Source: Phyllobacteriaceae bacterium (GTDB lineage: Bacteria > Pseudomonadota > Alphaproteobacteria > Rhizobiales > Rhizobiaceae). Taken from it: a DNA stretch of 48,818 bases. The position numbers and the translations under genes were made by a program. Below the pieces are notes generated by a model. It saw nothing but the letters and a program-made list of their open reading frames with translations. It was not told the DNA's origin and ran no database searches. Location of the stretch: the NCBI GenBank assembly GCA_029279965.1, contig JAJUHJ010000010.1, positions 1 to 48,818 on the forward strand. Direction: 5' to 3'. This document shows positions 3,854 through 37,242 of the stretch, in pieces; the stretch's first letter is position 1, and each line of letters begins with the position of its first letter.

Positions 3854-3958
3854 CTACAGCATCGGCCCGAAAATCTGAATCGCTTTTCGGAAAGCACGAT
3901 GTGTCGATCCAATGAGATGCCGCGTCCTTGTGCATCCAAAAGGACGCACGGCGCGCTA
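3854..3958. repeat. Intergenic palindromic repeat, copy A
   Basis: One full unit of a ~102-bp element, running from a CTA at 3854 to a CTA at 3956-3958. It contains two dyads: CCGAAAATC/GCTTTTCGG (one mismatch) and GTGCATCC-AAAA-GGACGCAC, the second flanked by CGCG on both sides. Other copies are at 10208-10306 and 36997-37242. The right end (GCGCGCTA) overlaps the TAG stop codon of the minus-strand wzz-like gene, so on that gene's mRNA the hairpin starts immediately after the stop. The element lies between wzz-like and the ABC operon, in the same direction as both. Confidence 0.9.
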
Positions 3959-4837
3959 GGCCACCGGTTTTGACCTGCCGAGACGGAATGCGTCTTTGAT
4001 CCGCCGCATCTTGTCAGCCGATTCTGCATTTTGCGCGGCATTCTTGAGACCTGCCCGCACAAAGGCAAACAACAGCAGCACAAATCCCGAAGCGATGGCA
4101 GCTACGACTGCTATCAACAGGGTGCGCTGGGATTCCGGCTCGCTCAATGTCGGCTCCTGAATGATGTCGGCCGGCGACACACTTCCCTGCAGTGCGAGTT
4201 GCGTCGACAGAATGTCCTGCTCGGTGGTGGCAATGCTGGAGATGAGGAGAACCGAGGATTGATTGGCGTTGCTCAGCATCGTCATGGCGGACCAGTTGCC
4301 CTCGCCCGCCTGATCGTAAATCGCGTTGAGACGTTCGAGATTGTCGATCAAGCTTTGCCTTGAACGCTCCAGCGCCTCCAGCTTCTGTTCCAGAACGCGC
4401 CTCTTGTCTCCGCGCGGCACGGAATTCTGGATGAGTTGATCAAGCAGACGGGTGAGCAGTGCCTGGGTCTCTTCGGGCGATGTGCCGGTCACGCTGACTC
4501 TGAAATAGTCGGCATTGTCCAGCTTCTGAACACTCAGCCGATTCTCCAGAAGCGCCTGGCGGGCAGCAGCAACAGTGCCATGATTGGCATCCGACAGCCC
4601 TGCCTGGATCGCCGGATCGATGACACTTGCGCTTTGGAGCAGCGCCGCTTCTTCCTGTGACATCGCGACCATGGCTTCGGCGCGGTAGCTGTCCGACTGA
4701 GAAAAATGCAGGTAGCTGAAAACGGCCAAGCCGATGAGAAGGGGACCGAACACCAGCAGCATCCACGATTCGGCGATCGCGACAGCAAGGTCAAGCAGGC
4801 TTATTTCATCGTTTTGCGAAGGGAGTGTTTCGGTCAT
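3956..4837 (-). CDS. Wzz-like polysaccharide chain-length determinant
   Basis: Inner-membrane protein of 293 residues with the Wzz/co-polymerase layout: a short cytoplasmic N-terminus, a first membrane segment near residues 27-46, a long periplasmic region rich in predicted coiled coil (about residues 130-195), and a second membrane segment near 240-262 followed by a basic tail. It lacks a tyrosine-kinase domain. Such proteins set the length of O-antigen, capsule or exopolysaccharide chains. It is divergent from the UDP-glucose dehydrogenase gene, supporting a role in an acidic polysaccharide pathway. Its TAG stop codon lies inside the end of repeat copy A. Which polymer it controls is unknown. 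Confidence 0.78.
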   Translation of the reverse strand: MTETLPSQNDEISLLDLAVAIAESWMLLVFGPLLIGLAVFSYLHFSQSDSYRAEAMVAMSQEEAALLQSASVIDPAIQAGLSDANHGTVAAARQALLENRLSVQKLDNADYFRVSVTGTSPEETQALLTRLLDQLIQNSVPRGDKRRVLEQKLEALERSRQSLIDNLERLNAIYDQAGEGNWSAMTMLSNANQSSVLLISSIATTEQDILSTQLALQGSVSPADIIQEPTLSEPESQRTLLIAVVAAIASGFVLLLFAFVRAGLKNAAQNAESADKMRRIKDAFRLGRSKPVA

Positions 4838-5147
4838 CTTGCTCTTCTGTCTTCATCCCGCCTTGAAATAATGGGCTTTGAGAGAACATTTGTGTGGGCA
4901 ATTTAGGGCAAATTGCCCGATTCCACCCACAGGCATCGCCCGGATTCTTCTGGCCGCATTTGCATGCCGGCGCAAGGGTGCGCCTGCTCGTTTGCCCATT
5001 GTTGCCAAGCCATTCCGTCGAAAGTAGGAATGCGGGGTGTGTGCAAGGATCGCGGAGACTCGAATTTTTGCTTGAGGGCAGGTCTCCCTTGTTCGGCCTC
5101 ATTGAAGCTCTATCCAGCGCACAGACCTGAATCGGGACCGGTGAATC
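4838..5147. other. Divergent control region between wzz-like and ugd
   Basis: These 310 bases separate two divergent polysaccharide genes and must hold both promoters. The visible feature is a perfect 9+9 inverted repeat at 4896-4918, described separately. I found no coding region that looks real and no clear riboswitch. Confidence 0.6.
4896..4918. promoter_or_regulatory. Perfect 9+9 bp dyad, candidate operator
   Basis: GGGCAATTT and AAATTGCCC are exact inverted copies separated by AGGGC. The dyad ends about 60 bases before the wzz-like start codon and lies in the divergent region with ugd, the expected place for a dimeric regulator site. The binding protein is unknown. An RNA hairpin in the wzz-like leader is an alternative. 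Confidence 0.5.
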
Positions 5148-6515
5148 ATGCACGTTACGCTATTTGGTACGGGTTATGTGGGCTTGGTAACGGGAGCCTG
5201 CCTTGCCGACGCTGGCCACGCAGTGCTTTGCGTGGACGTCGACGAGAAGAAGATCGCGCGGCTGAAAGCCGGCGAAATCCCCATCTACGAGCCTGGCCTG
5301 GAGGCCATTGTGAAGCGGTCCGCGCAAGCCGGCACCTTATCTTTCACAACCGATGCGGCGGCGGCGGTTGCCCATGCAGAATTGCAATTCATCGCCGTGG
5401 GAACACCAGCAGACGGCGATGGATCGGCCGATCTGAGCTTTGTGCTCGATGTTGCCGCCACGATCGGTCGCCATATGGAGAGCGACAAGATTGTCGTGGT
5501 CAAATCCACCGTGCCCGTGGGAACCTGCGACCAGGTCAAGGAGCGCATCACCGAGGTGCTTTCGGAACGGCCGGCAGAGCTTGGCTGCGAGGTTGTGTCC
5601 AACCCCGAGTTCTTGAAGGAAGGATCGGCAGTGGCCGATTTCCTGAAGCCGGACCGCATCATTGTCGGCACGGCATCCAAGCGGGCTGGCGCGGTGATGA
5701 AGGAGCTCTACGAGCCATTCAACCGCAATCACGACCGGACAATCTACATGGATGTTCGTTCGGCCGAGCTTTCCAAATATGCGGCCAACGCCATGCTGGC
5801 GACGAAGATCAGCTTCATCAACGAAATCGCCAACCTTGCCGAGCGGCTCGGCGCGGATATCGAGCAGATCAGGCGCGGCATCGGGGCCGATCCGCGCATA
5901 GGGTATGATTTCATCTATCCAGGACTTGGCTATGGCGGAAGCTGCTTTCCCAAGGACGTGCAGGCGCTCATCCGGACTGCCAGGAATGCAGGGTATGGTG
6001 CAGGCCTCGTCGAGGCTGTCGATGCCATCAACGAGCGACAGAAGAAAACATTGTTCGAGCGGATTGCCGGCCACTATGGGGGGATAGACGCCCTGAAGGG
6101 TAAGACGATCGCGCTATGGGGGCTCGCCTTCAAGCCGAATACCGACGACATGCGGGAGGCGCCGAGCCGGACGTTGATGGAGGCGCTGTGGGACTGCGGT
6201 GCGCGGGTCCAGGCCTACGATCCGGTGGCCATGGACGAAGCCCGGCGTATTTACGGAGACCGTGAAGATTTGGTTCTCGCTCCGGATAAGTATTCGGCTC
6301 TGGCCGATGCCGATGCTCTGGCCATCTGCACGGAGTGGCAGCAGTTCCGCGCGCCAGACTTCGATGAAATGGCACTGCGGCTGAAGAAACGGCTCATTTT
6401 CGACGGGCGCAATATTTATGCACCGGATCGGATGCGGGATGAGGGCTGGACATATTTCAGCATCGGCCGTGCGCCCTCGCTTCCAAGACTCAAGGCTGTC
6501 AAGGCCGCCTCATGA
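5148..6515 (+). CDS. ugd: UDP-glucose 6-dehydrogenase
   Basis: Cytoplasmic enzyme that oxidises UDP-glucose to UDP-glucuronate with two NAD+, supplying acidic sugars for surface polysaccharide. The 455-residue length is normal for the family. The NAD-binding GTGYVG is at residues 7-12, the central region has KSTVPVGT, and the catalytic cysteine is Cys266 in GGSCFPKD. The C-terminal UDP-binding domain has [18 protein letters not shown]. The stop overlaps the start of the epimerase gene by four bases (ATGA), so the two are translationally coupled and its product can pass straight to the epimerase. The ribosome-binding site is weak. Confidence 0.96.
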
Positions 6516-7552
6516 AGGTTCTCGTAACGGGAAACGCAGGCTTCATCGGCTTTCACGTCGCCTTGCGCCTTGTCGAGCGAGGCGACGAGGTGGTGGGCTT
6601 CGATAACGTCAACAGCTATTACGAGCCGGCCCTGAAGGAAGCGCGGCTCAATCTCCTGCGAGAGGCGGGAGACCGGCAGGGTGGCCGTTACACCTTCGTC
6701 CGTGCGGACCTTGCCGACCGGAGCGCGGTGGAGCGCTGCTTCGGTGAACATGGATTCGACCGGGTGATCCATCTCGGCGCACAGGCAGGCGTACGCTACA
6801 GTCTGGAGGATCCCCACTCCTATGTTCAGAGCAATGTGGTGGGCTTTACCAACATCCTCGAAGCCTGTCGGCATGGAAAGGTTGGCCATCTGACCTACGC
6901 CTCGACCTCCAGCGTCTATGGCGCCAATACGAAAATGCCGTTTTCCGAGCATGACGGCGCCGATCATCCGCTCCAGTTCTATGCTGCAACCAAGCGCGCG
7001 AACGAACTGATGGCTCACAGCTATGCGCATCTGTTTGGTCTGCCGACCACCGGCCTGCGCTTCTTCACAGTCTACGGACCGTGGGGCCGGCCCGATATGG
7101 CGCTTTTCAAGTTTACGCGGCTGATGTTGGAAGACCGGCCCATCCCGGTTTTCAACAATGGCAACCACACGCGCGACTTCACTTATATCGACGATATTGT
7201 CGAGGGTGTCATTCGCGCCAACGATTCCGTAGCAACGCCGGATCCGGACTGGGATGCGGCGCGCCCCGACCCGGCGACAAGTGCTGCCCCTTTCCGCATC
7301 TTCAACATCGGCAACAGCGCCCCGGTGAGGCTTATGGACTACATTGCCGCGCTGGAAGAAGCGCTTGGGAAGAAAGCGAAACTCGACTTGCTGCCGCTAC
7401 AGCCGGGCGATGTGCCGGATACCTTCGCCGATACCGGGGAACTGCAGGCCCATGTGGGCTATCGCCCGGACACGCCGGTGAACGAAGGCGTGCGCCGCTT
7501 CGTTGAATGGTACCGGAGCGATTACACAGCCCTTGCGCAAACGGATCGCTGA
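6512..7552 (+). CDS. NAD-dependent nucleotide-sugar epimerase, probably UDP-glucuronate 4-epimerase
   Basis: Extended short-chain dehydrogenase of 346 residues. The Rossmann motif GNAGFIG is at residues 7-13 and the catalytic YxxxK is Tyr157/Lys161 in [24 protein letters not shown] and the length match the LpsL/CapI-type UDP-glucuronate 4-epimerases, which make UDP-galacturonate. The four-base overlap with ugd, whose product is UDP-glucuronate, supports that substrate. UDP-glucose 4-epimerase activity is the main alternative, but the context favours glucuronate. The product would feed lipopolysaccharide or capsule galacturonate. Confidence 0.88.
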
Positions 7553-7561
7553 CCGCAAGGT

Positions 7562-7578
7562 GCGTTGCCTTCCGCAAC
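7562..7578. terminator. Hairpin between epimerase and tRNA-Val
   Basis: CGTTGC and GCAACG form a perfect 6-bp stem around a five-base loop just after the epimerase stop and downstream of the oppositely oriented tRNA. Neither side has a clear U-run, so it is only a weak bidirectional terminator candidate. Confidence 0.35.
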
Positions 7579-7608
7579 GGGTATGGCTGACAATCTATGG
7601 CAGGAGGA

Positions 7609-7683
7609 TGGTGGGCGTGACAGGGATTGAACCTGTGACCCCTTCGATGTCAACGAAGTGCTCTCCCGCTGAGCTACACGCCC
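7609..7683 (-). tRNA. tRNA-Val (anticodon GAC)
   Basis: A 75-base cloverleaf including an encoded CCA. The acceptor stem is GGGCGTG/CACGCCC, the D arm GCTCAGCGGGAGAGC, the anticodon stem CTTCG/CGAAG with loop TTGACAT (anticodon GAC at 7649-7651), and the T arm ACAGG-TTCAATC-CCTGT. Every stem pairs. It reads the valine codons GUC and GUU. Confidence 0.97.
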
Positions 7684-7696
7684 ATCCGACGCGCGC

Positions 7697-7725
7697 ATAG
7701 ATCACATATTTGACGACGGCGTCAA
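7697..7725 (-). promoter_or_regulatory. Predicted promoter of tRNA-Val
   Basis: On the minus strand TTGACG (7725-7720) is followed after 17 bases by ATCTAT (7702-7697), about 14 bases before the mature tRNA 5' end. The -35 is good and the -10 moderate. Confidence 0.5.
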
Positions 7726-7758
7726 TAGCCTGTTTGCGCCCATTCGTGCTTTCCAGGA

Positions 7759-8121
7759 TCAGGCCGCCTGCAACAGCTTTTCCACCTCGTTGACGAGGTC
7801 GCGCAGGTGGAAGGGTTTGGACAGCACCTTGGCATCGCGTGGCGCTTGGGAATCTGGATTGAGCGCGACGGCTGCGAAGCCGGTGATGAACATGACCTTG
7901 AGATCGGGGTCGATTTCGGTCGCCCGCCGCGCAAGCTCGATTCCATCCATCTCGGGCATGACGATATCGGTCAGAAGCAGTGAGAAAGGCTCCTCGCGCA
8001 GCCGGTCGTAAGCGCCTGCGCCATTGTCGAAATCGACGACTTCATAGCCGGCACGCTCCAGTGCCTTGACCAAAAATCGCCGCATATCCTCATCATCTTC
8101 CGCAAGAAGAATTCGTGCCAT
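7759..8121 (-). CDS. cpdR: Single-domain response regulator CpdR
   Basis: A 120-residue receiver domain with no output domain. It has the acidic pocket AEDDEDM, phospho-acceptor Asp52 in LLTDIVMPEMDG, Thr80 and Lys102 in LSKPFHL. The sequence closely matches the alphaproteobacterial CpdR family, which in its unphosphorylated form delivers substrates such as CtrA to ClpXP protease and so controls cell-cycle progression. I chose the ATG at 8121 (MARILLAEDD), which has GGAAGA upstream; the longer open frame from 8184 lacks family support. The neighbours, an amidohydrolase then hisN/suhB, match the order I recall around S. meliloti cpdR1. Confidence 0.93.
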   Translation of the reverse strand: MARILLAEDDEDMRRFLVKALERAGYEVVDFDNGAGAYDRLREEPFSLLLTDIVMPEMDGIELARRATEIDPDLKVMFITGFAAVALNPDSQAPRDAKVLSKPFHLRDLVNEVEKLLQAA

Positions 8122-8323
8122 TATGTCTTCCGAAAACCAACCCCGACGCCGCCCGTTCAGGAGACGATCACAATAATCTGCCATATGGTTGGAACAGGGT
8201 AAATATCAAGTGAACGATGTTGCAGGTGCGGGATGCGGCAATCCTGCATGCTGGACATGCAACCCCGCCGGTGGCACGCTCGTTGGGAAAGGGCGGTGCA
8301 ATGCCGGACGGATCGAGGCTTAA

Positions 8324-9214
8324 ATGGGCGCAGAGGTGGACTTCTCCGAAATTCCAGCTTTTCAGGTCCGTGGGGCGGATGAACAGCGGGTTCCCTTTGT
8401 TTTCAACTCCCCCCACAGCGGGCGGTACTACCCGCCACGCTTCCTGGCCATGAGCAGCCTCGACGACAGCACTATCAGGCGCTCCGAAGACTGCTATGTG
8501 GATGAATTGTTTGCCGCCGCTGCCACCTTGGGTGCACCGCTGCTCACTGCGAATTTCCCGCGTGCCTATCTGGACGTAAATCGCGAGCCGTGGGAACTCG
8601 ACCCGCGCATGTTTCGCGATCCGGTGCCGTCCTATGCCAATACTCGCTCGCCTCGGGTGGCGGGCGGGCTCGGGACCGTGCCCAGACTTGTCGGCGAGGG
8701 GCTTGCGATCTATGCACAGAAGCTGCCCATTGCCGAAGCGCTTTCACGGATAGAAAACATCTATAGGCCGTATCACGCCTGCCTTGCAGCACTCTTACAG
8801 CGCACCCGCGATGTCTTCGGCTGCGCAATCCTGATCGATTGTCATTCAATGCCGGCAAATATCCGCGTGGGCGACGGCGGTTTTCGGCCGGATTTCATCG
8901 TCGGCGATCGCTTCGGCGCTTCCGCCGTGCCCGCGCTACGCGATCACGCCATGACGTTGCTGTCGGCAAAGGGATACACGGTGGTGCAGAACAAGCCTTA
9001 TGCGGGAGGCTTCATAACGGAGCATTACGGCCGCCCGGCCGAACGGCTCCACGCTCTTCAGATCGAGATCAACCGTGGGCTCTACATGGATGAACGGACG
9101 CTGGAGCGGACAGGACGCTTCCAATCGCTTGCCGACGATCTAAGCGAGTTCGTCAAGGAACTGACCACGATTCCGGAAGAGTATTTCCTGGCGACGCCTC
9201 TCGCCGCAGAATAG
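8324..9214 (+). CDS. N-formylglutamate amidohydrolase family protein
   Basis: A 296-residue protein of the HutG-type FGase family (COG3741). Family enzymes hydrolyse N-formyl-L-glutamate to glutamate and formate, the last step of one histidine-degradation route, or related N-acyl amino acids. Likely zinc ligands and catalytic residues are in NSPHSGRYYP (His31), the DELFAAA region and IDCHSMP (Asp172, His174). The later ITEHYGRP and LQIEINRGLYM are also typical. No hut genes are nearby, so the real substrate may not be formylglutamate. The ATG at 8324 follows GGATCGAGG. It is divergent from cpdR. Confidence 0.82.
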   Translation: MGAEVDFSEIPAFQVRGADEQRVPFVFNSPHSGRYYPPRFLAMSSLDDSTIRRSEDCYVDELFAAAATLGAPLLTANFPRAYLDVNREPWELDPRMFRDPVPSYANTRSPRVAGGLGTVPRLVGEGLAIYAQKLPIAEALSRIENIYRPYHACLAALLQRTRDVFGCAILIDCHSMPANIRVGDGGFRPDFIVGDRFGASAVPALRDHAMTLLSAKGYTVVQNKPYAGGFITEHYGRPAERLHALQIEINRGLYMDERTLERTGRFQSLADDLSEFVKELTTIPEEYFLATPLAAE

Positions 9215-9240
9215 CGAATCCTGGATTCTGCCACTGGCCT

Positions 9241-9325
9241 AAAAAGAGACCGTATCGTTTACACGACACGGCCATAAGTCTAGGGAGGAAACGCCCAAGG
9301 CGGGCATTGGACAGAATCACTGTCC
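9241..9325 (-). ncRNA. mmgR: MmgR / suhB-type trans-acting small RNA
   Basis: A compact sRNA gene of about 85 bases on the minus strand between the amidohydrolase and hisN/suhB. A TTGACA/TAAGCT promoter leads to a start near 9325. The transcript would begin GGACAG-TGATT-CTGTCC (hairpin 1), then GCCC-GCCTT-GGGC, then a single-stranded TTTCCTCCC that could pair with Shine-Dalgarno sequences. It ends in the stem CCGTGTCG/CGATACGG at 9250-9271 followed by TCTCTTTTT. Position, size and elements fit the Rfam suhB family, known as MmgR in S. meliloti, where it limits polyhydroxybutyrate storage. Assignment is from recalled family traits, not a covariance search. Confidence 0.8.
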
Positions 9326-9332
9326 GAATCAA

Positions 9333-9360
9333 AGCTTATGTCGCTCTTAAAAGTTGTCAA
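9333..9360 (-). promoter_or_regulatory. Promoter of the MmgR-like sRNA
   Basis: The minus strand carries TTGACA (9360-9355), a 16-base spacer and TAAGCT (9338-9333), seven bases before the predicted start. It is a near-consensus housekeeping promoter aimed away from hisN. Confidence 0.65.
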
Positions 9361-9426
9361 GTTCTTGATCCGCTAATCTCGCAAGACCTTGAGTAACTTT
9401 TCCATGAAAAGAGAGAAACAATACCG

Positions 9427-10200
9427 ATGATCGTGTCATCAGACTTTATGCATCGACTTGCGGTTGCTGCCGCGGCTGAAACACTACCTCGTTTCAGGTG
9501 CGAAGGAGAGGTGATCAACAAACATGCAGGCGGCTTTGATCCGGTGACTGAAGCTGACCGGGCGGCCGAGCAAGCCATTCGCGCGCTTATCCGTGACGAA
9601 TATCCGGACCATGGCATCATTGGTGAGGAATTCGGTTCTGAAGGCGAGGGGCGTCGCCATGTGTGGGTGATCGACCCGATCGATGGCACGCGCGCTTTTA
9701 TCTCCGGCTTGCCTCTATGGGGGACGCTTGTCGGACTCCTCGTTGACGGAAAGGCGGTCGCCGGCTTGATGTCGCAGCCTTTTACGGGAGAGCTTTACTA
9801 TGCCACCGGCGAGGGCGCCTTTTATGAGGGGCCTGGCGGCGCACGCCGCCTTAAGACCCGAAGTACCGCCGAACTGTCAGAGGCGACGATGTGTACCACC
9901 ACTCCGGCTATGTTCGATGTCCCCCGCCGCGCTCTTTACGACCGGGTCGAAGAAGCCGTGCGCCTGCCGCGTTACGGGACGGATTGCTACGCCTATGCCA
10001 TGGTGGCCGCTGGCCATGTCGACCTTGTTGTCGAATGCGACCTGAAACCCCACGACGTGGCCGGATTGATTCCGATCATTGAGCAGGCAGGAGGCGTTAT
10101 TACCACCTGGCAAGGGACGGCAGCCGAGGCGGGCGGCGATATCGTCGCGGCCGCAAACGCCGATTTGCACGAAAGGGCACTGGAATTTCTAAGGGCGTAG
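9427..10200 (+). CDS. hisN: Histidinol-phosphatase of the inositol monophosphatase (SuhB/HisN) family
   Basis: Mg-dependent phosphatase of 257 residues. Metal-binding motifs are GEEFG (around Glu67), WVIDPIDGTRAF (residues 80-91) and, near the C-terminus, ECDLKPHDVAG. Within the family this subgroup, with TPAMF and RYGTDCYAYAMVAAGHVDL, matches the HisN-type histidinol-phosphatases that perform the penultimate step of histidine synthesis in actinobacteria and many alphaproteobacteria. Inositol-1-phosphatase or fructose-1,6-bisphosphatase activity cannot be excluded by sequence alone. The gene lies downstream of the MmgR-like sRNA locus, which explains the older family name suhB for that RNA. 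Confidence 0.85.
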   Translation: MIVSSDFMHRLAVAAAAETLPRFRCEGEVINKHAGGFDPVTEADRAAEQAIRALIRDEYPDHGIIGEEFGSEGEGRRHVWVIDPIDGTRAFISGLPLWGTLVGLLVDGKAVAGLMSQPFTGELYYATGEGAFYEGPGGARRLKTRSTAELSEATMCTTTPAMFDVPRRALYDRVEEAVRLPRYGTDCYAYAMVAAGHVDLVVECDLKPHDVAGLIPIIEQAGGVITTWQGTAAEAGGDIVAAANADLHERALEFLRA

Positions 10201-10207
10201 CCTCGCC

Positions 10208-10306
10208 GGCTTGCATCGGCCCGAAAATCTGAACCGATTTTCAGAAAGCACGATGCGTAGATTCAATTGGATTGCGCATCCTCGTGCCTCAAAAGGACGC
10301 GCGCTA
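10208..10306. repeat. Intergenic palindromic repeat, copy B
   Basis: A diverged, slightly shortened copy of the ~102-bp element, lacking a few bases in the right-hand hairpin. It retains GCATCGGCCCGAAAATCTGA, GATTTTCAGAAAGCACGATG and the GCGCGCTA end. It fills the gap between the convergent hisN and hydrolase genes, and its terminal CTA at 10304-10306 is the TAG stop codon of the hydrolase. Confidence 0.88.
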
Positions 10307-11263
10307 GGAGAAGGCCAGCGCGTCGCTTTCGTGCCGGTGGGCAAAAGCCTCGAAGGCCGCCAGCACCTGCTCGCGATATATGTCCGCTTCCTGCAGAAGT
10401 TCGTGCCGCGCACCGTCCACCGTCAGCACCTTGGCCGCGCGCAGTCTTCTCGCATAACGCTCGATCGCCGGGGTGGAGACCACCCGGTCTTCGCCGGCCG
10501 CCAGAATGAGCGTCGGAATGCGGCGCTTGGCCATGAATTTCGGCTGCTGGACGCGCTCTGCGGCGAGGCAGACGGCGCGCATCCAGGCGACGGTTGGCCC
10601 GTGGATAAAGAGTTCCGGGAATGTGCGCAGGAGCATCTGGTTGCGCGCAAATCGCGTCGGGTCGCTGGTCAGACGGTTCGGCTCGAATGGCACCTCTTTT
10701 CCGCGTCGACTCGCCCCGGCGAAATATGCGTTGCCGAAACCGAGCGCATTCAAAAAGCCCGCTATCCGCCCTATCGCGGGCATGGAAATCGGCGCGCGGA
10801 TTTCCAAAAGGGGTGCGAGCAGCACCATGCGCCGCACGCGGTTTGTCAGCTCCGGTCCCGCCAGAAGAGCAATCAGCGCTCCGGTGGAATGGGCAAGGAG
10901 GGTGTAGGGCGGCGGACAGTCTGGCAGAACCACCTTGCGAAAGAACAGGTTGAGATCGGCGACATATTCATCGAAGTCATGCACATGCCCGCGCATCGGA
11001 TTGCGCAGAAGCCTCTGCGATCCTCCTTGCCCGCGCCAGTCGAGCGCTGCGGCTGCAAAGCCGCGTGAGGAGAGATCCCGCACGGTCTCGAAATATTTTT
11101 CGATGCATTCGTTGCGTCCGGGCAGAATGACAACTGTTCCGTTCTCCGCGCGGGAGGGAAAGCGCGCGCAACGCAGTCGACACCCATCGGCCGCTGAGAT
11201 CATTTCAGCCTGGGCATTTTCGGGAACAGGATTTTCCGGAAGCTCGCGCAAGAGGTCTGTCAT
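10304..11263 (-). CDS. Alpha/beta hydrolase, lysophospholipase/monoacylglycerol lipase type
   Basis: A 319-residue serine hydrolase of the PldB/monoglyceride lipase group (COG2267). The nucleophile elbow is AHSTG (Ser126), a variant of GxSxG with Ala at the first position. The likely acid is Asp259 in AAGEDRVVS and the base His287 in GARHELLQE. LDWRGQGGSQR and GHVHDFDEYVADL are typical of this group. No signal peptide is evident, so it probably acts in the cytoplasm or at the inner membrane face. It may cleave lysophospholipids or monoacylglycerols; the exact substrate is unknown. Its stop codon is supplied by repeat copy B. Confidence 0.82.
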   Translation of the reverse strand: MTDLLRELPENPVPENAQAEMISAADGCRLRCARFPSRAENGTVVILPGRNECIEKYFETVRDLSSRGFAAAALDWRGQGGSQRLLRNPMRGHVHDFDEYVADLNLFFRKVVLPDCPPPYTLLAHSTGALIALLAGPELTNRVRRMVLLAPLLEIRAPISMPAIGRIAGFLNALGFGNAYFAGASRRGKEVPFEPNRLTSDPTRFARNQMLLRTFPELFIHGPTVAWMRAVCLAAERVQQPKFMAKRRIPTLILAAGEDRVVSTPAIERYARRLRAAKVLTVDGARHELLQEADIYREQVLAAFEAFAHRHESDALAFS

Positions 11264-29471: not shown

Positions 29472-29635
29472 GATCGTTCTCCGAGTGCTTCGGTGTTCCC
29501 GCTATACTGCCGTTTCCATGTCGGCTTCGTAACGCTCATCGCATCATGTTCCCACCCCGATATGGACGCAAGAAAAACCTGCGCGGCAGAATTTGACGCA
29601 ATTGCTGTGGCGGGCGGATTGCACGCAACGAAGCG

Positions 29636-29665
29636 AGCGCGGCAAGGAATGACACTTGCCGCGCT
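29636..29665. terminator. Perfect 11-bp hairpin downstream of omp10-like gene
   Basis: AGCGCGGCAAG and CTTGCCGCGCT are exact inverted copies around GAATGACA. On the minus strand it begins about 70 bases after the lipoprotein stop and about 165 bases before the nucleotidase start. There is no U-run, so it is a factor-dependent terminator or mRNA-end stabiliser candidate. Confidence 0.5.
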
Positions 29666-29732
29666 GCGCAAATTTCCATTGTGCAACGTTATGTCAGCCG
29701 AGGACGAAACAATGTTCTTGCGGCTCGGAAGA

Positions 29733-30107
29733 TCAGGAGCGTCGCGTCAGGACGAAGTTCTGCCCTTGCGTGTTCGTGCAATTGAGTTGCGTGGGGCTCA
29801 CGAGAGCGCAATTGACCTGCGTCTGTGTCTGACGGATGAGCGATGTCATCGAAATTTCGACATTCTGCCTGTCGAGCATACGATAAGCCCCCTCCGACAA
29901 ACGGTTGCCGGTATCGGTTGCGACGGTCACGAACTGGCCACCGGAGAATGTCGAGAGGGCAACGCCCTGTGCGTCGATCCACTGCCCTTCGACCGGCGTC
30001 GTTCCCATTCCGGCTGTGCCGGTGCGCGGTATCGTGCCTGCGCAGCCGGCAGCGACCAGCCCGAAGGCCAACCCTGCATATGTGGCTGCTGTACGAAATC
30101 CAATCAT
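29733..30107 (-). CDS. omp10: Omp10-like outer-membrane lipoprotein
   Basis: Small lipoprotein of 124 residues. The lipobox is LVAAGC with the lipidated Cys22 after a hydrophobic signal segment. The mature part ends with CALVSPTQLNCTNTQGQNFV, very close to the C-terminus of Brucella Omp10 as I remember it, and also shares the pattern of EGQWID and LSEGAYRMLD. Omp10-type proteins have the small beta-barrel fold of the Inh metalloprotease-inhibitor family. The precise function is not known; in Brucella it is surface exposed and immunogenic. AGGAGG sits before the ATG at 30107. Confidence 0.85.
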   Translation of the reverse strand: MIGFRTAATYAGLAFGLVAAGCAGTIPRTGTAGMGTTPVEGQWIDAQGVALSTFSGGQFVTVATDTGNRLSEGAYRMLDRQNVEISMTSLIRQTQTQVNCALVSPTQLNCTNTQGQNFVLTRRS

Positions 30108-30237
30108 GGCGGCCTCCTGATATAATGAGCTTATTCATTCGCCGCATTTTCCGTGGCAATCAAGCCGCAGTCGTGCTTTCAGCGTATCACCGCTTGCGGA
30201 TGTTGCTAAATTGCCATGCATCTGAAGCATCTTGCAG

Positions 30238-31422
30238 TCAGGTGGGCTCGCCGTTCACGGCAAAGCGCGTCTTCAGAAGGCACTCGTCATATTCGGATTG
30301 TGCGGTTGAATCGAAGACCACCCCGCCCCCGACGTTGAAAACAGCCTCACCTCCCGGATAAAGCGAGATGGTGCGGATTGCCACGTTGAACCGCATCCGC
30401 CCATCAGGGGCGATCCAGCCGATGGCGCCGCAATAGACGTCGCGCGGCGCCCTTTCCAGTTTGCGCAGAATTTTCATCGCGCTGATCTTCGGCGCGCCCG
30501 TGATCGAGCCACAGGGAAAAAGCGCCGTCAGGATATCGGCAAGCGTCAGCTCCGGCAGAAGCCGCGCCCGGATACGACTTATCATCTGATGCACGGTCGG
30601 GTAGCTCTCGACGTGGAAAAGTTCCGGAACGTGAAGCGTGCCCACCTCGCTGATGCGCGAAATATCGTTGCGCAGGAGATCCACGATCATGCGGTTCTCC
30701 GCCTGGTTTTTGGGGTCTTTGCGCAGGGCCTCCTTGAGAGCGGCGTCATCCCGCGCGTTGCGGCCACGCGGCATGGTGCCCTTCATGGGCATCGTCTCGA
30801 TCCAGTCGTCGGCTGAAATCTCGAAGAAGAGTTCGGGCGATCGCGACAGGACGACGGGGCCGCTGAGATCGATGAAAGAGGCATAGCGCACCGGCTGGCG
30901 CGCGGTCAGCGCATCGAACAGCGCAAGCGGGTCACCTTGCCAGCGGGCAAAAACGGGAAATGTCAGATTGCCCTGATAGCAGTCGCCGAGGCGCAGATGA
31001 CGGTGGAGCGTCTCGAACCGCTCTTCGTAATCGGCAAAACTCCAAGCCGGCTTTGCCTCAAAAAGACGCGGGTCCATCCCTCCATCGGTCCGTAACAATG
31101 CGGCCGGTTCTGAAGGGCCCTCGAAAACGCCAAGGCACAGGAGAGGAGCGCGCCGCTTCTCCGGAAGATGCGCGACCAGCGATGGGTCCAGCAGATAACC
31201 TGCTTCATAGGAGATATAGCCGGCCAGCCACTTGCCGGCGCGGCGGAGCGATTCCGCCCTTTCCAATGCCGGACGCAATTCGTCTGCATGATCGGCAAGG
31301 AGAATTTTCTGCGGCGCGGCAAAGGTGAGGACCTCGCCCGTAAGATCGTTGCGGAAGATCGCTGTTTGGCGGCTCTGCCCCGAAACAAGGAGACTGGCCG
31401 CCTCCCGTCCCGAATCAGTCAT
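30238..31422 (-). CDS. pabB: Aminodeoxychorismate synthase component I
   Basis: Chorismate-binding enzyme of 394 residues that, with a glutaminase partner (PabA/TrpG) encoded elsewhere, makes 4-amino-4-deoxychorismate for folate synthesis. The catalytic core has the family segments DCYQGNLTF, SRSPELFFEI, PMKGTMPRG (the chorismate loop), ENRMIVDLLRNDI, GSITGAPKISAMKIL and YCGAIGWI. The PIKGT-type motif with a lysine (MKGT) fits PabB rather than anthranilate synthase. There is no fused lyase domain. The start overlaps the pepF stop by eight bases, so the two are coupled. Confidence 0.92.
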   Translation of the reverse strand: MTDSGREAASLLVSGQSRQTAIFRNDLTGEVLTFAAPQKILLADHADELRPALERAESLRRAGKWLAGYISYEAGYLLDPSLVAHLPEKRRAPLLCLGVFEGPSEPAALLRTDGGMDPRLFEAKPAWSFADYEERFETLHRHLRLGDCYQGNLTFPVFARWQGDPLALFDALTARQPVRYASFIDLSGPVVLSRSPELFFEISADDWIETMPMKGTMPRGRNARDDAALKEALRKDPKNQAENRMIVDLLRNDISRISEVGTLHVPELFHVESYPTVHQMISRIRARLLPELTLADILTALFPCGSITGAPKISAMKILRKLERAPRDVYCGAIGWIAPDGRMRFNVAIRTISLYPGGEAVFNVGGGVVFDSTAQSEYDECLLKTRFAVNGEPT

Positions 31423-33274
31423 CCAGCGTTTCCAGCTCCTCGATCAGGCCCTCGATCACGGAAAGCCCCTTGTTCCAGAAGGCGGGATCGGATGCATCGA
31501 GGCCGAAAGGTGCGAGCAATTCGGAGTGGTGCTTGGTCCCGCCGGCCTTCAGCAGCGCGAAATACTTCTCCTGGAAGCCTTCCTCAGCCTGGCTGTAGAC
31601 CGCGAAAAGCGAGTTTACCAGGCAATCGCCGAACGCATAGGCATAGACGTAGAAGGGCGAATGGATGAAGTGTGGAATGTAGGCCCAGAACGTTTCATAG
31701 CCCTCGCGCAGGGTAATTGCCGGGCCGAGGCTTTCAGCCTGCACCTCCCACCAGATTTCACCCAGCAGGTCCGATGTGAGTTCGCCCATGCGGCGCTCCG
31801 TGTGGACACGGCGTTCGAATTCGTAAAAGGCGATCTGGCGCACCACCGTGTTGATCATGTCCTCGACCTTTTGCGCCAGCATGGCCTTGCGTTCGCGCTT
31901 GTCGGAGGTCCGCTCCAGAAGCGAGCGGAAGGTCAGCATCTCGCCAAAAACGGAGGCTGTTTCGGCGAGGGTCAAAGGTGTGGCCGCCATCAGCGCGCCC
32001 TGATCACCCGCCAGAACCTGGTGTACGCCATGACCGAGCTCGTGGGCGAGCGTCATCACGTCGCGCGGTTTGCCCATGTAATTCAGCAGGACGTAGGGGT
32101 GCGCGGACGGCACCGTTGGATGCGCGAAGGCGCCGGGCGATTTTCCCGGACGCACGGGGGCGTCGATCCAGTTGCGCTCGAAGAAACGGCCGGCGATCTC
32201 GGCCATATCCGGCGAAAAGCCGCGATAGGCGGAAAGCACCGTCTCTTTCGCCTCGTCCCAGCCGATCACCGCCTGCGGCGTTTCCGGCAGCGGCGCATTG
32301 CGGTCCCAGTGGTTGAGCGTGTCCATGCCCAGCCACTTTGCCTTCAGCGCGTAATAGCGATGCGAAATGCGCGGGTAAGCCTCGCGAACCGATATCGCCA
32401 GCGCGTCCACGACTTCGCGCTCCACCCGGTTGGACAGATGGCGCGAGTCCGCAACGTCCTCGAAATTGCGCCAGCGATCGGCGATCTCCTTGTCCTTCGC
32501 CAGGGTATTGGTGACGAGGGTGAAGAGACGCATGTTCTCCTTCAGCGTTGCCGCCAACGCCTCCGCCGCTTTGCGCCGTTTCTCGCCGTCAGCGTCCTGC
32601 ATCAGGTTCAGAGTCGGCTCAAGTGTCAGTTCCTCGCCATCGACATCGAAGCGCAGGCTGGTCATCGTCTCATCGAACAGGCGGTTCCATGCGCCCCGGC
32701 CGGTTATCGAACTCTCGTGGAAAAGCTGTTCGACCCGGTCTTCCAACTGGTGCGGCCGATCTTTGCGGATGTCGAGAATCCAGGGGCGGTAATGGCCGAA
32801 GAGCGGGTCTGCCTCGAACGCGGCCTCTATGAGGGCGTCATCGATCTTGTTCATTTCGAGCGTGAAGAAGAGCAGATGCGTGCTGGCATCGGTCAGTCGC
32901 TCCTGTACGTCGCCGTAGAACTTGGCCCGCTTTGGATCGGACGTGTCGCCGGCATAGATGAGCCCTGCGTAAGAGCCGATTCGGCCAAACAATTCGTCGA
33001 GCCCTTCATAGGCACGCACGGCTTCGCCCAGACGGCCGCTGCCGCCCTTGCCGGCTTCCTCGGCCAGTCTGCCCTTCCACATCTCTTCGAAGGCACGAGC
33101 CTCGCGTTCCGTTCGCGCCAGGTCCTGCGCGAGTTCGGGACTGTCCATCGAAGGATAAAGATCGGCGAGGTTCCATTCGGGCAGCGTGCCCAGATCGGTC
33201 TTTGTGAACACAGCGGCATCGCTTTCTTCCGCCGCTGCCGCGAATGTTTTGTGCCAGAGTGGAAAGTACGCCAT
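31415..33274 (-). CDS. pepF: Oligoendopeptidase F, M3 family
   Basis: Cytoplasmic zinc metallopeptidase of 619 residues that degrades oligopeptides, typically 7-17 residues long. The zinc motif is HELGH at 411-415 in TLAHELGHGVHQ, and a downstream Glu-containing ETASVFGEM supplies the third ligand. N-terminal LPEWNLADLYPS is typical of PepF. No signal peptide. GGGAG precedes the ATG. The end overlaps pabB by eight bases; pepF and pabB form a two-gene unit. A 654-codon frame runs antisense through it, which is a GC-bias shadow. Confidence 0.94.
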   Translation of the reverse strand: MAYFPLWHKTFAAAAEESDAAVFTKTDLGTLPEWNLADLYPSMDSPELAQDLARTEREARAFEEMWKGRLAEEAGKGGSGRLGEAVRAYEGLDELFGRIGSYAGLIYAGDTSDPKRAKFYGDVQERLTDASTHLLFFTLEMNKIDDALIEAAFEADPLFGHYRPWILDIRKDRPHQLEDRVEQLFHESSITGRGAWNRLFDETMTSLRFDVDGEELTLEPTLNLMQDADGEKRRKAAEALAATLKENMRLFTLVTNTLAKDKEIADRWRNFEDVADSRHLSNRVEREVVDALAISVREAYPRISHRYYALKAKWLGMDTLNHWDRNAPLPETPQAVIGWDEAKETVLSAYRGFSPDMAEIAGRFFERNWIDAPVRPGKSPGAFAHPTVPSAHPYVLLNYMGKPRDVMTLAHELGHGVHQVLAGDQGALMAATPLTLAETASVFGEMLTFRSLLERTSDKRERKAMLAQKVEDMINTVVRQIAFYEFERRVHTERRMGELTSDLLGEIWWEVQAESLGPAITLREGYETFWAYIPHFIHSPFYVYAYAFGDCLVNSLFAVYSQAEEGFQEKYFALLKAGGTKHHSELLAPFGLDASDPAFWNKGLSVIEGLIEELETLDD

Positions 33275-33419
33275 CGGGGTGCTCCCTGAACTTCCGGTTC
33301 GTCACCAAATCAAGAATTCGTTCACCGGGTTTCTTGAGTGCCTGTTTAGAAGCGCGTGCGATAGAGTTCCAGTGCGCCGATCCTTACAATGACGCGAATC
33401 TTTTTACGGTGTGGCATTC

Positions 33420-34931
33420 ATGTCCGAAACCGTCCTGATTGTTGACGACGACCCGGTACAGCGCCGACTGCTCCACGAAGTGGTGCGACGGCTGGGCTAT
33501 GCGCCGATGCTTGCAGACGGCGGCATGATGGCGCTCGAAACGTTCGAAAGAGCGGGTGCGGACCCCGTACGGGCGGTCATTCTCGACCTGATGATGCCCG
33601 GGATGAATGGTATCGAAGTGATCCAGCGCCTGCGCAAGAGCGGCATCGACATTCCCGTCATTGTACAGACGGCCAAGGGTGGCGTCGAGACGGCGGTGGC
33701 TGCCATGCGCGCCGGTGCGTTCGATTTCGTTGTCAAACCCGCGTCGCCGGAACGATTGGGCCTCGCGATCCAGAACGCGCTCAAGGTGGAAGCTCTGGAG
33801 GATGCCCGCAAGCAGAAGCGCGGCAAGGGCGGTGGCTTTTCCCTGCGAGATATCATCACGCACAGCCCGCGCATGCAACGCGTGATCCAGCTTGCGCGCA
33901 AGGCGGCCGCCTCGGACATCCCGGTTCTCATCGAGGGAGAGTCGGGAGTTGGCAAGGAACTGATCGCCCGAGCCATAAGAGGCGAAAGCGCTCGGCGCGC
34001 AAAGCCGTTTGTAACCGTAAATTGCGGCGCCATTCCCGACAATCTGGTCGAAAGCATTCTGTTCGGCCACGAACGTGGCGCCTTCACGGGAGCCACGGAA
34101 AAGCACGCGGGCAAGTTCGTCGAGGCGAACGACGGAACCCTTTTCCTGGATGAAATTGGCGAGCTTCCGCCAGACGTCCAGGTGAAGCTGCTGCGCGCGG
34201 TGCAGGAGGGGGAGGTGGATCCGGTCGGCGCGCGCGCCACCGCGAAAGTGGATATCCGGCTGATTTCGGCCACCAATCGCGATCTCCTGCAGCAGGTTCG
34301 CGAGGGCCGTTTTCGTGAGGATCTGTTTTACCGCCTCAATGTGTTCCCCATCACGGTGCCCCCGCTGCGCGAACGCAAGGAGGATATCGCGCTGCTGGTG
34401 CAGCACTTTATCGCTCGATTCGCCAACGCCGTTCCCGGCCAGAGCGTTTCCGGGATATCGGCGTACGCGTTGGAACTCCTGTCTGCCTATGATTGGCCGG
34501 GGAATATTCGGCAGCTTGAAAATGCCGTCTTCCGCGCTGTGGTCCTATGCGAGAGCGAGGTGCTGACGGCAGCGGAGTTTCCACAGATCCGCGCCCAGGT
34601 TGAAGGAATTGACGAACAGGCCGCTTTCGAGCACGCGGTGGATGCGTCGGGACAAACGGCAGATGTCGTGCCTTCCGCTACCGGCGAGCCGGCGGCTACG
34701 CCTTCGAAGCCACAGATTCAGGAGCCGGGGGTTCTCCATATTCTCGATGCGGAAGGCGATCTGCGCCCGATCGAATGGATGGAGCGGGAGATGATCCGGT
34801 ACGCCATTCAACGCTATGACGGCCGCATGAGCGAAATTGCCCGGCGGCTTGGCATCGGCCGCTCGACGCTTTACCGCAAGCTCAAGGAAATGGGCATCGA
34901 GCCTTCGGACGGGCGGCCTGGCGACGCGTGA
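33420..34931 (+). CDS. Sigma-54-dependent response regulator (NtrC family)
   Basis: Three-domain regulator of 503 residues. The receiver has the acidic pocket VDDDP, phospho-acceptor Asp56 in VILDLMMPG and Lys106 in VVKPAS. The AAA+ domain has Walker A GESGVGKE (173-180), the sigma-54 contact motif GAFTGA (220-225), Walker B LFLDEIGEL and the arginine-rich FREDLFYRLNVFPI. A Pro/Ala-rich linker leads to a Fis-type helix-turn-helix (EIARRLGIGRSTLYRKLKEM). When phosphorylated it should hydrolyse ATP to open sigma-54 promoters. No histidine kinase is adjacent, so partner and targets are unknown. A GTG three codons upstream (33411) is an alternative start. Confidence 0.9.
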   Translation: MSETVLIVDDDPVQRRLLHEVVRRLGYAPMLADGGMMALETFERAGADPVRAVILDLMMPGMNGIEVIQRLRKSGIDIPVIVQTAKGGVETAVAAMRAGAFDFVVKPASPERLGLAIQNALKVEALEDARKQKRGKGGGFSLRDIITHSPRMQRVIQLARKAAASDIPVLIEGESGVGKELIARAIRGESARRAKPFVTVNCGAIPDNLVESILFGHERGAFTGATEKHAGKFVEANDGTLFLDEIGELPPDVQVKLLRAVQEGEVDPVGARATAKVDIRLISATNRDLLQQVREGRFREDLFYRLNVFPITVPPLRERKEDIALLVQHFIARFANAVPGQSVSGISAYALELLSAYDWPGNIRQLENAVFRAVVLCESEVLTAAEFPQIRAQVEGIDEQAAFEHAVDASGQTADVVPSATGEPAATPSKPQIQEPGVLHILDAEGDLRPIEWMEREMIRYAIQRYDGRMSEIARRLGIGRSTLYRKLKEMGIEPSDGRPGDA

Positions 34932-35050
34932 AGCATCATCGATGCGTCGGGCGCGTGCCCGTTAACTGCCTCTTCACCATAATTCCTTCAAATGCGCGAA
35001 ATCACGGACTCGCCATCCTGTCAGCGAATTCCCGGTTCAATAAGTGCTGA

Positions 35051-35065
35051 TTAACCATTATGGTT
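35051..35065. promoter_or_regulatory. Palindrome across the DUF882 start codon with CtrA-type half site
   Basis: AACCAT-T-ATGGTT (35053-35065) is a perfect palindrome containing the proposed ATG. TTAACCAT (35051-35058) matches a CtrA half site. No Shine-Dalgarno sequence is visible before this ATG, so either the start is elsewhere or translation initiation is unusual. Confidence 0.3.
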
Positions 35066-36883
35066 GAGACTCCAGGTGCTTCGGAGCACCCGGAGCCTCT
35101 ATGGGGACAGTTCCAGCCGACGGGTCACGTTTTGAAAAGCGACAACCTTCGACCGCGGGAATCGCGAAAGGGTCAACTCGCTCCAGGCAAAATCATTGCC
35201 GGGCTGATCCTCGCGATAAACATCGTGTTTTTGGCGGCTCCTGCCGCACAGGCGGAGACGCGCACACTCAAGATATATTTCCTGCACACGAAAGAGCGTG
35301 CGGAGATCGCCTACAAGCGCAACGGTCGCTACATCCCAAGCGGCCTCAAACAGATCAATCACATGCTTCGTGACTGGCGCCGCAACGAACCCACCGAGAT
35401 GGACCCGCGGCTGCTGGACCTTTTGTGGGAAGTTTACCGAGCCGTCGGGTCGCGCGAATACATTCATGTCGTCTCGGGTTATCGTTCACCGGCAACCAAC
35501 GCCATGCTGCGTAGCCGCTCGAGCGGCGTTGCCAAGAAAAGCCAGCATATGCTGGGCAAGGCGATTGACTTCTATCTGCCGGACGTGAAGCTCTCCCGTC
35601 TGCGGGACGCCGGCTTGAGGTTGCAGGCGGGGGGTGTTGGCTATTATCCGCGCTCGGGATCGCCTTTCATCCATCTTGATGTTGGCGGCGTGCGCCATTG
35701 GCCGCGTTTGAGCCGCAAGGAACTGGTCGCAGTTTTCCCGAATGGAAACACGTTGCATGTTCCCTCAGACGGCAAGCCGCTGCCCGGCTATGAACAGGCT
35801 GTTGCCGCTTATGAGGCCCGCCAGCGTAATGGCGGAAGCATTCAAATGGCCAGCGAGACCGGTAATCGTGGGCGCGGTCTGCTCGCAGCACTCTTCGGGG
35901 GCGGCGCCGACGAGGAGGAGGACAACGCGGAAATTGCCGTTGCGCAGCGACCGGCGCAGGCGGTGAGCGCCGCGCCGGAACCACAGCCACAAGAGCGGCG
36001 GGCGGAGACACCGGCCACCATCCTGGCCGCACTGCCTGCCCGCGCCGTTCCCGTTCCCCGTCTGGCGCCTCGGCCTGATGCAGAGGTCGGACCTACCGCG
36101 CCCGCCGAAGCAGCACGGGAGGCGATTCCCGCGCCAGTTGAGGCGACCGAGGCTCCCGAGGTTCAGACCGCCCTTAACGTTCCCGTGCCCACCCAGCGGC
36201 CGGAGTACGAGCCACCCGAGGCGCAGCAGCTTGCAGCCGCCGACAGCGTGGACCTGCCGGGGCCAGTGGCCTATGCCATGCCGACGCGCCGGCCTGAGCG
36301 GTCGGCGCAGGCGGATGTCATCGCCGAACTCCTTTCCACGCGCAAGGAAACGCCACCGGTGACGCAAGCTTCGCTCGTGTCCGTACCGCCTTCCATTCAG
36401 GATCTTAAGGAAGAAATGGCTCAGGCGGACGCGTCTGCGAAAGCGCAGATCGTTGCGGCAGTGAAGGCGAAGAGCAGCGAGGTCGAGATCGCCGACGTGA
36501 AGGAAGGCGCGACGGTGTCGGATTCACCGCGTGTTGCATTGGCAGCGTACGGCGACAATCGGCCGGCTGGCCTCATTGCCGCGGGCACGGTCAACACTAC
36601 GGCCAAAGGCTCGAGACCTCGCCCGCAGGACGCACGCGTTCATCGTACGCCGACGGTCGTTCCCGTTGCCGCAACGCCTACGCAGCGGGTGCTCAGCAGT
36701 CATTCCGTGATCAGCAGCCGGCCGGAAACCCAGGCGCCAGACTTCAACATCCGGCTCGCTGAAGCACCACAGGCAGTCTACACGGCCGGTTTCGAGCAGA
36801 AGCATACTCCCGTGACGGACATGCGCCGCTTTACGGGTAAGGCCGTGACCTTCCTCTCTCTTGCAAAATTCAAGGCTGAGTAG
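35060..36883 (+). CDS. DUF882 / M15-type murein peptidase with long Ala/Pro-rich tail
   Basis: A 607-residue exported or membrane-anchored protein. A hydrophobic segment at about 44-65 (ending PAAQA-ET) is a signal peptide after a long basic N-terminal region. Residues 66-215 match the DUF882/YcbK (MepK) peptidase domain: VVSGYRSPATNAML, His163 and Asp170 in QHMLGKAIDFY, and His205, Asp207 and His213 in IHLDVGGVRHW, consistent with a zinc site. E. coli MepK cleaves crosslinks of peptidoglycan. The remaining ~390 residues are a low-complexity Ala/Pro/Glu-rich tail, unlike the short E. coli protein. The start codon is uncertain because no ribosome site is seen. Confidence 0.82.
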   Translation: MVETPGASEHPEPLWGQFQPTGHVLKSDNLRPRESRKGQLAPGKIIAGLILAINIVFLAAPAAQAETRTLKIYFLHTKERAEIAYKRNGRYIPSGLKQINHMLRDWRRNEPTEMDPRLLDLLWEVYRAVGSREYIHVVSGYRSPATNAMLRSRSSGVAKKSQHMLGKAIDFYLPDVKLSRLRDAGLRLQAGGVGYYPRSGSPFIHLDVGGVRHWPRLSRKELVAVFPNGNTLHVPSDGKPLPGYEQAVAAYEARQRNGGSIQMASETGNRGRGLLAALFGGGADEEEDNAEIAVAQRPAQAVSAAPEPQPQERRAETPATILAALPARAVPVPRLAPRPDAEVGPTAPAEAAREAIPAPVEATEAPEVQTALNVPVPTQRPEYEPPEAQQLAAADSVDLPGPVAYAMPTRRPERSAQADVIAELLSTRKETPPVTQASLVSVPPSIQDLKEEMAQADASAKAQIVAAVKAKSSEVEIADVKEGATVSDSPRVALAAYGDNRPAGLIAAGTVNTTAKGSRPRPQDARVHRTPTVVPVAATPTQRVLSSHSVISSRPETQAPDFNIRLAEAPQAVYTAGFEQKHTPVTDMRRFTGKAVTFLSLAKFKAE

Positions 36884-36890
36884 AGCTTCG

Positions 36891-36910
36891 GAGCCGGTAA
36901 TCACCGGCTC
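36891..36910 (+). terminator. Hairpin terminator after the DUF882 gene
   Basis: GAGCCGGT-AATC-ACCGGCTC is a perfect 8-bp stem starting 8 bases after the stop codon, with only a weak T-rich stretch (CATTTT) further on. Confidence 0.6.
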
Positions 36911-36996
36911 CCATCATTGCATTTTGCAGGCGGACGCAGTCGCCTGACCTCCGCATAGAGCGCACCTTGATGCGCGCAAATTGGACGCGTTGACCT

Positions 36997-37038
36997 GAGC
37001 GCGTCCTCGTGCGCCCAAAAAAGACGCACGGCGCGCTA
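36997..37038. repeat. Intergenic palindromic repeat, copy C1 (right half only)
   Basis: Only the right-hand hairpin of the ~102-bp element is present (GCGCGTCCTCGTGCGCCC to GCGCGCTA). It directly abuts copy C2, with which it shares the CTA at 37036-37038. Confidence 0.85.
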
Positions 37039-37140
37039 CAGCATCGGCCCGAAAATCTGAATTGATTTTCGGAAAGCACGATGCGTAGATTCAAGGAAAT
37101 AGCGCGTCCTTGTGCGCCCAAAAAGACGCACGGCGCGCTA
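37036..37140. repeat. Intergenic palindromic repeat, copy C2
   Basis: A full tandem unit: CTA to CTA with a 102-base period. CCGAAAATC-TGAATT-GATTTTCGG is a perfect dyad with six-base loop, and the right half has TGCGCCC-AAAA-AGACGCA. The next unit starts in its final CTA. Confidence 0.9.
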
Positions 37141-37242
37141 CAGCATCGGCCCGAAAATCTGAATCGATTTTCGGAAAGCACGATGCGTAGATTCAATGAG
37201 ATAGCGCGTCCTTGTGCGTCCAAAAAGACGCACGGCGCGCTA
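37138..37242. repeat. Intergenic palindromic repeat, copy C3
   Basis: The best-formed unit. It has perfect dyads CCGAAAATC-TGAATC-GATTTTCGG and GTGCGTC-CAAAAA-GACGCAC, the latter inside an outer AGCGCG/CGCGCT pair. The CTA at 37240-37242 is the TAG stop codon of eda on the minus strand. It is tandem with C2 at exactly 102 bases. Confidence 0.92.

Follow-up and report, generated by a model that had tools for sequence, protein, structure and literature searches.

A TA-flanked two-hairpin repeat that meets stop codons at one exact position in a Phyllobacteriaceae genome and its relatives

Three gene ends in the window and the repeat that meets them

The window, the whole stretch of DNA analyzed here, comprises 48,818 nucleotides of a Phyllobacteriaceae bacterium (assembly GCA_029279965.1, contig JAJUHJ010000010.1, positions 1 to 48,818) and contains copies of a short palindromic repeat that ends on the stop codons of three genes. 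An earlier note, made from the sequence alone, had drawn attention to this overlap, and the overlap is borne out: three minus-strand open reading frames end in a TAG that reads as CTA on the plus strand, at 3956-3958, 10304-10306 and 37240-37242, and at all three loci that TAG consists of the right end of the repeat plus one flanking TA. The element itself is about 100 bp long, folds into two hairpins and is flanked by TA dinucleotides.

The first of these genes (3956..4837, minus strand) encodes a Wzz-like protein that scores 25.4 bits against Pfam Wzz, slightly below the 25.5 cut-off, and that gave no match in a comparison with NCBIfam. Two-hairpin copy 1 of the element lies next to it on the plus strand (3857..3956) between TAs at 3855-3856 and 3957-3958, such that the regenerated TAG of the gene occupies 3956..3958 on the minus strand. 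Copy 2 (about 10212..10304, plus strand) is degenerate, with 68% ungapped identity to copy 1; it has lost its left TA and retains the right one at 10305-10306, where it meets the TAG (10304..10306, minus strand) of an alpha/beta hydrolase gene (10304..11263, minus strand; Hydrolase_4). The third locus is a tandem array with a spacing of 102 bp, headed by the right-end remnant of a further copy (36998..37038) and followed by copies 3a (37039..37138) and 3b (37141..37240), all on the plus strand. The TA at 37139-37140 is common to 3a and 3b, and 3b has its right TA at 37241-37242. Only this last copy makes contact with the gene, eda (KDPG aldolase; 37240..37881, minus strand), an Eda NCBIfam equivalog with closest named relatives in Chelativorans and Nitratireductor, whose regenerated TAG (37240..37242, minus strand) sits at the base of a hairpin stem. 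The earlier description thus holds for the overlap with the stop and needs amending for the tandem array of two copies plus a remnant at locus 3 and for the degenerate state of copy 2. Likewise, the repeat end had been said to be the stop codon; the two do overlap, but on a reading by TA duplication only the G of the TAG letters is supplied by the element.

The copies have the surrounding consensus Y-TA-[C AGCATCGG ... GGCGC(G/T)C]-TA-R. On the left, the target letters Y, T and A are found in 68, 59 and 59 of 75 cases, respectively, and on the right, T, A and R are found in 61, 62 and 62 of 73. The insertion target is Y-TA-R, with TA on both sides afterwards, in essential agreement with the earlier proposal of insertion at TAG/CTAG sites. 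The fold of the consensus sequence (92 copies) has two hairpins, each bounded by TA, and a linker of 12 nt. On this fold, which replaced a poor consensus structure from RNAalifold on a MAFFT alignment, 3193 of 3388 cells are paired and 9 of 37 pairs show double changes, some of them resting on one or a few sequences. The two outer pairs of the right hairpin change on both sides, from G-C (72 copies) to C-G (15) and from A-T (55) to C-G (31 of 92), so that pairing is kept though the terminal letter differs. The same change of terminal letter determines whether TA is followed by G, giving a stop, or by C, giving none. As for terminal inverted repeats, the two ends share by eye at most (A/C)GC(A/G)(T/C)CG, each half forming its own hairpin. 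At another place in this genome (G000:C170:279-497), two pieces of the left hairpin, spaced at 58 bp, come after a full element, an array which suggests that individual hairpins can be amplified in tandem as modules.

Position of the repeat relative to stop codons

The genome to which the window belongs (G000; 3.26 Mb, 206 contigs) has 99 merged candidate places for the element. Outside the window contig lie 83 regions, of which 80 were used and three weak places, on contigs C76, C121 and C203, were left out. A profile built from the copies of this genome gave 119 matches at E 0.1 or better, 89 of them at 41 bits or more; all counts exclude copies below 41 bits in this genome or 38 bits in relatives, as well as 58 ends that lack a TA within three bases. 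Against genes called by a simple codon-usage method (444 genes in 410 kb), none of the 89 copies is spanned by a gene, the copies being many, dispersed and outside genes. Right ends face a convergent gene in 63 copies, a divergent gene in 15 and no called gene in 4, and 7 are truncated; for left ends the figures are 65, 17, 4 and 3. Among the 82 copies with an intact right end, the stop of the gene lies at one exact offset in 20, and every other offset is occupied at most twice. Window copy 2 and the copy at L070 have the same CTA junction, these copies being shifted by small indels. Of 53 genes running into a stop-rebuilding end across five pooled genomes, 46 enter it in the TAG/TAA frame, where one-third would be expected (p 1e-15). 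The single-offset peak and these in-frame entries rule out chance placement. The earlier note had considered the pattern unlikely to be random and had named random distance and orientation of genome-wide copies as the observation that would refute it; checked in this genome, the pattern stands.

Which end meets the stop depends on its terminal base. We call an end restoring where TA meets G or A and non-restoring where TA meets C, and counted the ends that a convergent gene either reaches or approaches to within 150 nt, a gene in frame 0 being counted wherever it ends. Relatives were sampled at 20 regions each in G003 and G004, the latter listed in the same genus as the present genome, and at 10 each in G005 and G001, for 62 matches. 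In the present genome, 22 of 51 restoring ends are at a stop, versus 5 of 40 non-restoring ends. G004 and G005 have copies with ends of the same kind, with right ends on stops, and show 15 of 24 versus 1 of 17. In G003 and G001 the termini are often swapped: many copies start TA-R-CGCATCGG and finish GCGCTG-TA, and, among ends with TA, stop-rebuilding letters are found at 13 of 22 left ends and other letters at 18 of 21 right ends. There the stops follow the base rather than the side, lying on 8 of 13 restoring left ends versus 1 of 18 non-restoring right ends, and the convergent-gene count gives 9 of 11 restoring and 2 of 14 non-restoring ends at stops. For ends with TA in the five genomes, a frame-0 gene reaches 46 of 110 stop-rebuilding ends versus 8 of 115 others (Fisher p 4e-10), some of those 8 having weak coding scores and possibly being shadow frames; after merging of common sites the figures are 41 of 101 versus 7 of 106 (p 6e-9).

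The coincidence extends to plasmids. Matches occur in 348 records of the plasmid collection (Rhizobium, 262; Sinorhizobium, 78), of which 28 were read, picked before the genes near the match were seen; 23 are annotated and 5 are without annotation. The stop of an annotated coding sequence coincides with the element end in 12 of the 23 annotated records, or 8 of 15 distinct sites, examples being kdpB of Rhizobium laguerreae and an IS481 transposase of Martelella sp. AD-3. In all 12, TAG is followed by element sequence; 10 of these 12 copies have stop-rebuilding letters at both ends, and stops occur on both sides. Five of the 11 records without a coincidence represent one common site. Within the host's family, a match is present in 38 of 151 sampled genomes and 30 of 109 genera.

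Host proteins and empty sites

Occupied and element-free versions of the host protein end at the same codon at 8 of 8 at-stop sites tested. Where the element is absent, the stop reads TAG at four sites, TAA at two and TGA at two, and the occupied sites have TAG or TAA. Hosts within the genome of the window, for which relatives are distant, were compared by protein orthologues and not by empty sites in the DNA; 10 of 27 were judged, from the best 30 matches per search (eda, L032, L071, L044, L055, L035, L040, L077, L086 and L048). For both ActR and ArgB, 14 of 14 orthologues among the matches listed end at the same residue. The C-terminal end differs from those of orthologues by a few residues in eda, L071, L044 and L077 and by up to 8 in L048, and in each case the orthologues vary likewise among themselves.

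Four genes meet the left end instead, where they read TAC or a mutated form of it and end at a TGA 18-20 nt inside the element. These are, among loci L086, L074, L048 and L092, ribE, a class C beta-lactamase gene, purB and panC, with riboflavin synthase, class C beta-lactamase, adenylosuccinate lyase and pantoate-beta-alanine ligase as products. The predicted element-encoded tails have seven residues, YSIGPKI in three cases and GGIGPKI in one. RibE carries such a tail of seven residues here; 6 of 10 orthologues end exactly at ..EA with CTAA, and the rest lie within -1 to +4 residues of that end.

Comparison with sister genomes shows sites without the element. The flanks of 17 G003 copies were searched in G001 and G007, and those of 20 G004 copies in G005 and G006; 26 pairs from 22 sites were aligned and the joins read by eye. 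Nine of the 22 sites are empty with a single TA (L301, L302, L306, L308, L310, L282, L285, L288 and L293), as in the pairs L285/L373, L293/L375 and L308/L342. TA at these empty joins, together with many dispersed copies outside genes, are traits of the TA-target class of miniature inverted-repeat transposable elements (MITEs). One site appears to be occupied in two genomes: L104 in the genome of the window, where the host gene encodes a Pfam PEMT methyltransferase, and L294 in G004 both lie on the stop of a convergent gene with common flanks, and the insertion is either older than the split or arose twice.

Origin of the pattern, alternatives and known repeats

The pattern is probably due to a TA-targeting, MITE-like repeat whose stop-rebuilding insertions persist while stop-destroying ones are purged. 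The TA flanks, the target consensus, the empty sites, the conserved C-termini, the end bias and its reversal with swapped termini are all directly visible in the genomes compared. The element would be a non-autonomous intergenic repeat inserting at the TA of Y-TA-R, a class of sites to which TAG and TAA stops after C or T belong. Where G (or A) is the first base of the gene-facing end, TA followed by it would re-create TAG (or TAA) at the old position and leave the protein unchanged; where the first base is C, the stop would become TAC and, with the type of element in this genome, the protein would run on for seven residues (YSIGPKI). Insertions within coding sequence would be lost. At 3' ends, stop-rebuilding insertions would be silent for the protein and persist, and stop-destroying ones would mostly be purged; persistence and purging by end type would then lead to the single-position, single-orientation pattern. 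Movement would depend on a TA-targeting enzyme supplied in trans, with purifying selection as the filter.

Several observations weigh against this account as it stands. In the present genome, 43 Y-TA-R stops (350 ordinary genes) compare with 99 noncoding Y-TA-R sites within 150 nt downstream, and the at-stop shares expected from such availability are 0.30 here, 0.40 in G004 and G005 and 0.32 in G003 and G001, expectations that depend on a simple gene-calling method and on a set of loci selected because they contain the element. Restoring ends exceed them 1.4-2.6-fold (p 0.07, 0.04 and 9e-4, respectively), so the pattern is not fully explained by purging. Depletion of non-restoring ends at stops is clear in the present genome (p 0.015) and in G004 and G005 (p 0.0025) but not in G003 and G001 (p 0.25). 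Among the 22 sister sites, seven have a join of CA or TG rather than TA (L283, L289, L303, L311, L313, L316 and L317), five have joins that are unclear by eye (L290, L292, L305, L307 and L315), and at one, L281, the sister locus holds an element-like match and is not empty. Finally, a search limited to IS630-type DDE_3 and Y1_Tnp found no mobilizing enzyme. On these counts the pattern has two components, the loss of insertions that destroy a stop and an excess of those that rebuild one. For the excess, three meanings are conceivable: a silent insertion at a stop may survive better than others in the 3' region, the machinery may favor such sites, or the host may gain. The counts replace an earlier set (24/54 versus 4/53 in the present genome, 14/20 versus 0/18 in G004 and G005 and 8/14 versus 1/12 in G003 and G001), in which read-through was scored only where translation stops 18-20 nt inside and the window was wider on the right; the recount made the depletion weaker and the excess larger.

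Three of the noncanonical joins invite a further comparison. At L289, L313 and L317 (in G004 and G003), the sister loci L371, L344 and L359 have CA, and the occupied flanks have one CA and one TA, which would fit an element bringing one TA along. A TGA stop in the sister corresponds to TAA at L303 and L311. There is some chance, though a modest one, that the stop-rebuilding terminus evolved as an adaptation by which stop codons become safe and abundant landing sites for the element, and that the element may bring its own TA and rewrite TGA to TAA, the latter idea stemming from sites with TGA or CA in the sister. The stop-rebuilding end is the right one in the present genome, G004 and G005, often the left in G001 and G003, and in 10 of the 27 plasmid copies examined both ends are of this kind.

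A different account is that at-stop copies are kept for the benefit of the host, through an immediate stop and a stable hairpin serving to protect or terminate the mRNA. We judge this unlikely. It draws on the excess of restoring ends, on the double changes in the outer pairs of the right hairpin and on the folding of minus-strand RNA, which is better than in shuffled sequences for the three stop-bearing window copies (z -6.9, -2.5 and -3.9); copy 3b reaches -52.2 kcal/mol (z -6.9) with the stop codon at the stem base. A pattern scan around locus 3 also found 4 terminator-like sites versus 1.1 (standard deviation, 1.1) in shuffles, but three of the four use a weaker 5-bp sub-stem and take the loop of the strong hairpin as the U-run. 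In the test for intrinsic terminators, the strong hairpin itself is not followed by a U-tract. Moreover, conservation is no higher in at-stop copies than in the rest (mean, 91.1 versus 88.1 bits; p 0.29), paired termini would also be conserved by the needs of transposition alone, and some copies lie between same-strand genes, such as kdpB and kdpC. Of the portable stop plus 3' hairpin proposed in the earlier note, the regenerated stop, the strong hairpin and the excess stand; any function as terminator or stabilizer would be hypothetical.

Less probable still is a transposition machinery that prefers stop codons or transcribed 3' ends beyond Y-TA-R. The excess of restoring ends over availability would suit it, but non-restoring ends are depleted, and targeting would have to be orientation specific and flip with the terminal base. 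Truncation of host proteins, the last suggestion of the earlier note, with the end stop as a reading-frame accident, is almost certainly wrong: one of three frames into the right end does hit TAG at once, but the C-termini equal those of element-free orthologues at all eight sites and frame 0 accounts for far more than one-third of the genes entering restoring ends. Of the alternatives first raised, insertion at stop-codon TAs with regeneration of the stop is thus supported, a selected stop with hairpin is possible and truncation is not supported.

Repeats with some of these properties are known in other bacteria: TA-flanked repeats and repeats that remove a stop and lengthen a protein have been described (PMC2759123, PMC2229807, PMC2267715, PMC3049150, PMC10800456, PMC2573895, PMC2245857, PMC2873474, PMC3233446). 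ERIC / RU-1 of enterobacteria (127 bp) has stable stem-loops, TA ends, TA target duplication and many intergenic copies, and RU-1 at a 3' end can remove the stop codon and lengthen the protein (PMC2759123). The present element resembles these and related enterobacterial MITE-like repeats in its short stem-loops, TA flanks, TA duplication at the target and many intergenic copies, but it belongs to a different host group and has an end that rebuilds the stop, whereas for RU-1 loss of the stop is reported. Its sequence presumably differs from that of ERIC / RU-1. RUP of Streptococcus pneumoniae (107 bp) is described as using TA-containing targets, as enriched between convergent genes and as having terminal inverted repeats like those of IS630-Spn1 and a proposed mobilizer (PMC2229807, PMC3049150). 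Size, TA targets and convergent-gene enrichment are similar, but the ends of the present element are weakly alike by eye and no mobilizer was found among the families sought. Closer in host are RIME, the Rhizobium-specific intergenic mosaic elements, and Bru-RS1/Bru-RS2 of Brucella, 103 and 106 bp (PMC10800456, PMC2573895). These are likewise palindromic or repetitive and intergenic, occur in the same taxonomic order and, for Bru-RS, have a similar length. The element shows the traits that would define RIME / Bru-RS, namely two palindromes, about 100-110 bp and occurrence in Rhizobiaceae, and, on this likeness of description, the two are possibly of the same superfamily. Rfam gave no family at threshold, only a Brucella sRNA match at 17.1 versus 59.8 bits. 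In titles and abstract openings, with few subscription journals covered and hence as weak evidence of novelty, no repeat with a stop-rebuilding terminus was found.

REP elements with RAYT transposases are also palindromic and outside genes, but Y1_Tnp was absent from the present genome and was detected in one of 16 genomes searched, and identity with REP/RAYT is ruled out. TA duplication is not known to be a REP trait. IS630 has no support as the present mobilizer, in that DDE_3 does not track element copy number: G007 has 13 element matches and no DDE_3, and G012 has 22 DDE_3 matches and 1 element match. The one DDE_3 match reported in the genome of the window is a sub-threshold fragment with an internal stop, and an element copy lies about 10 bp from it (G000:C146:6239-6574).

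The element offers a countable case of how a mobile repeat stays harmless, the outcome at a stop codon being set by one terminal base, and relatives with swapped termini serve as a natural reversal experiment. This makes possible a direct test of targeting versus selection for intergenic repeats, and annotators may note that such repeats can begin inside stop codons. In G003, the flanks of L304 and L314 (query 661-880 and 2836-3055) adjoin another high-copy repeat, of the AGCAATTCC...GGAATTGC type, which matches many places in G001 and G007.

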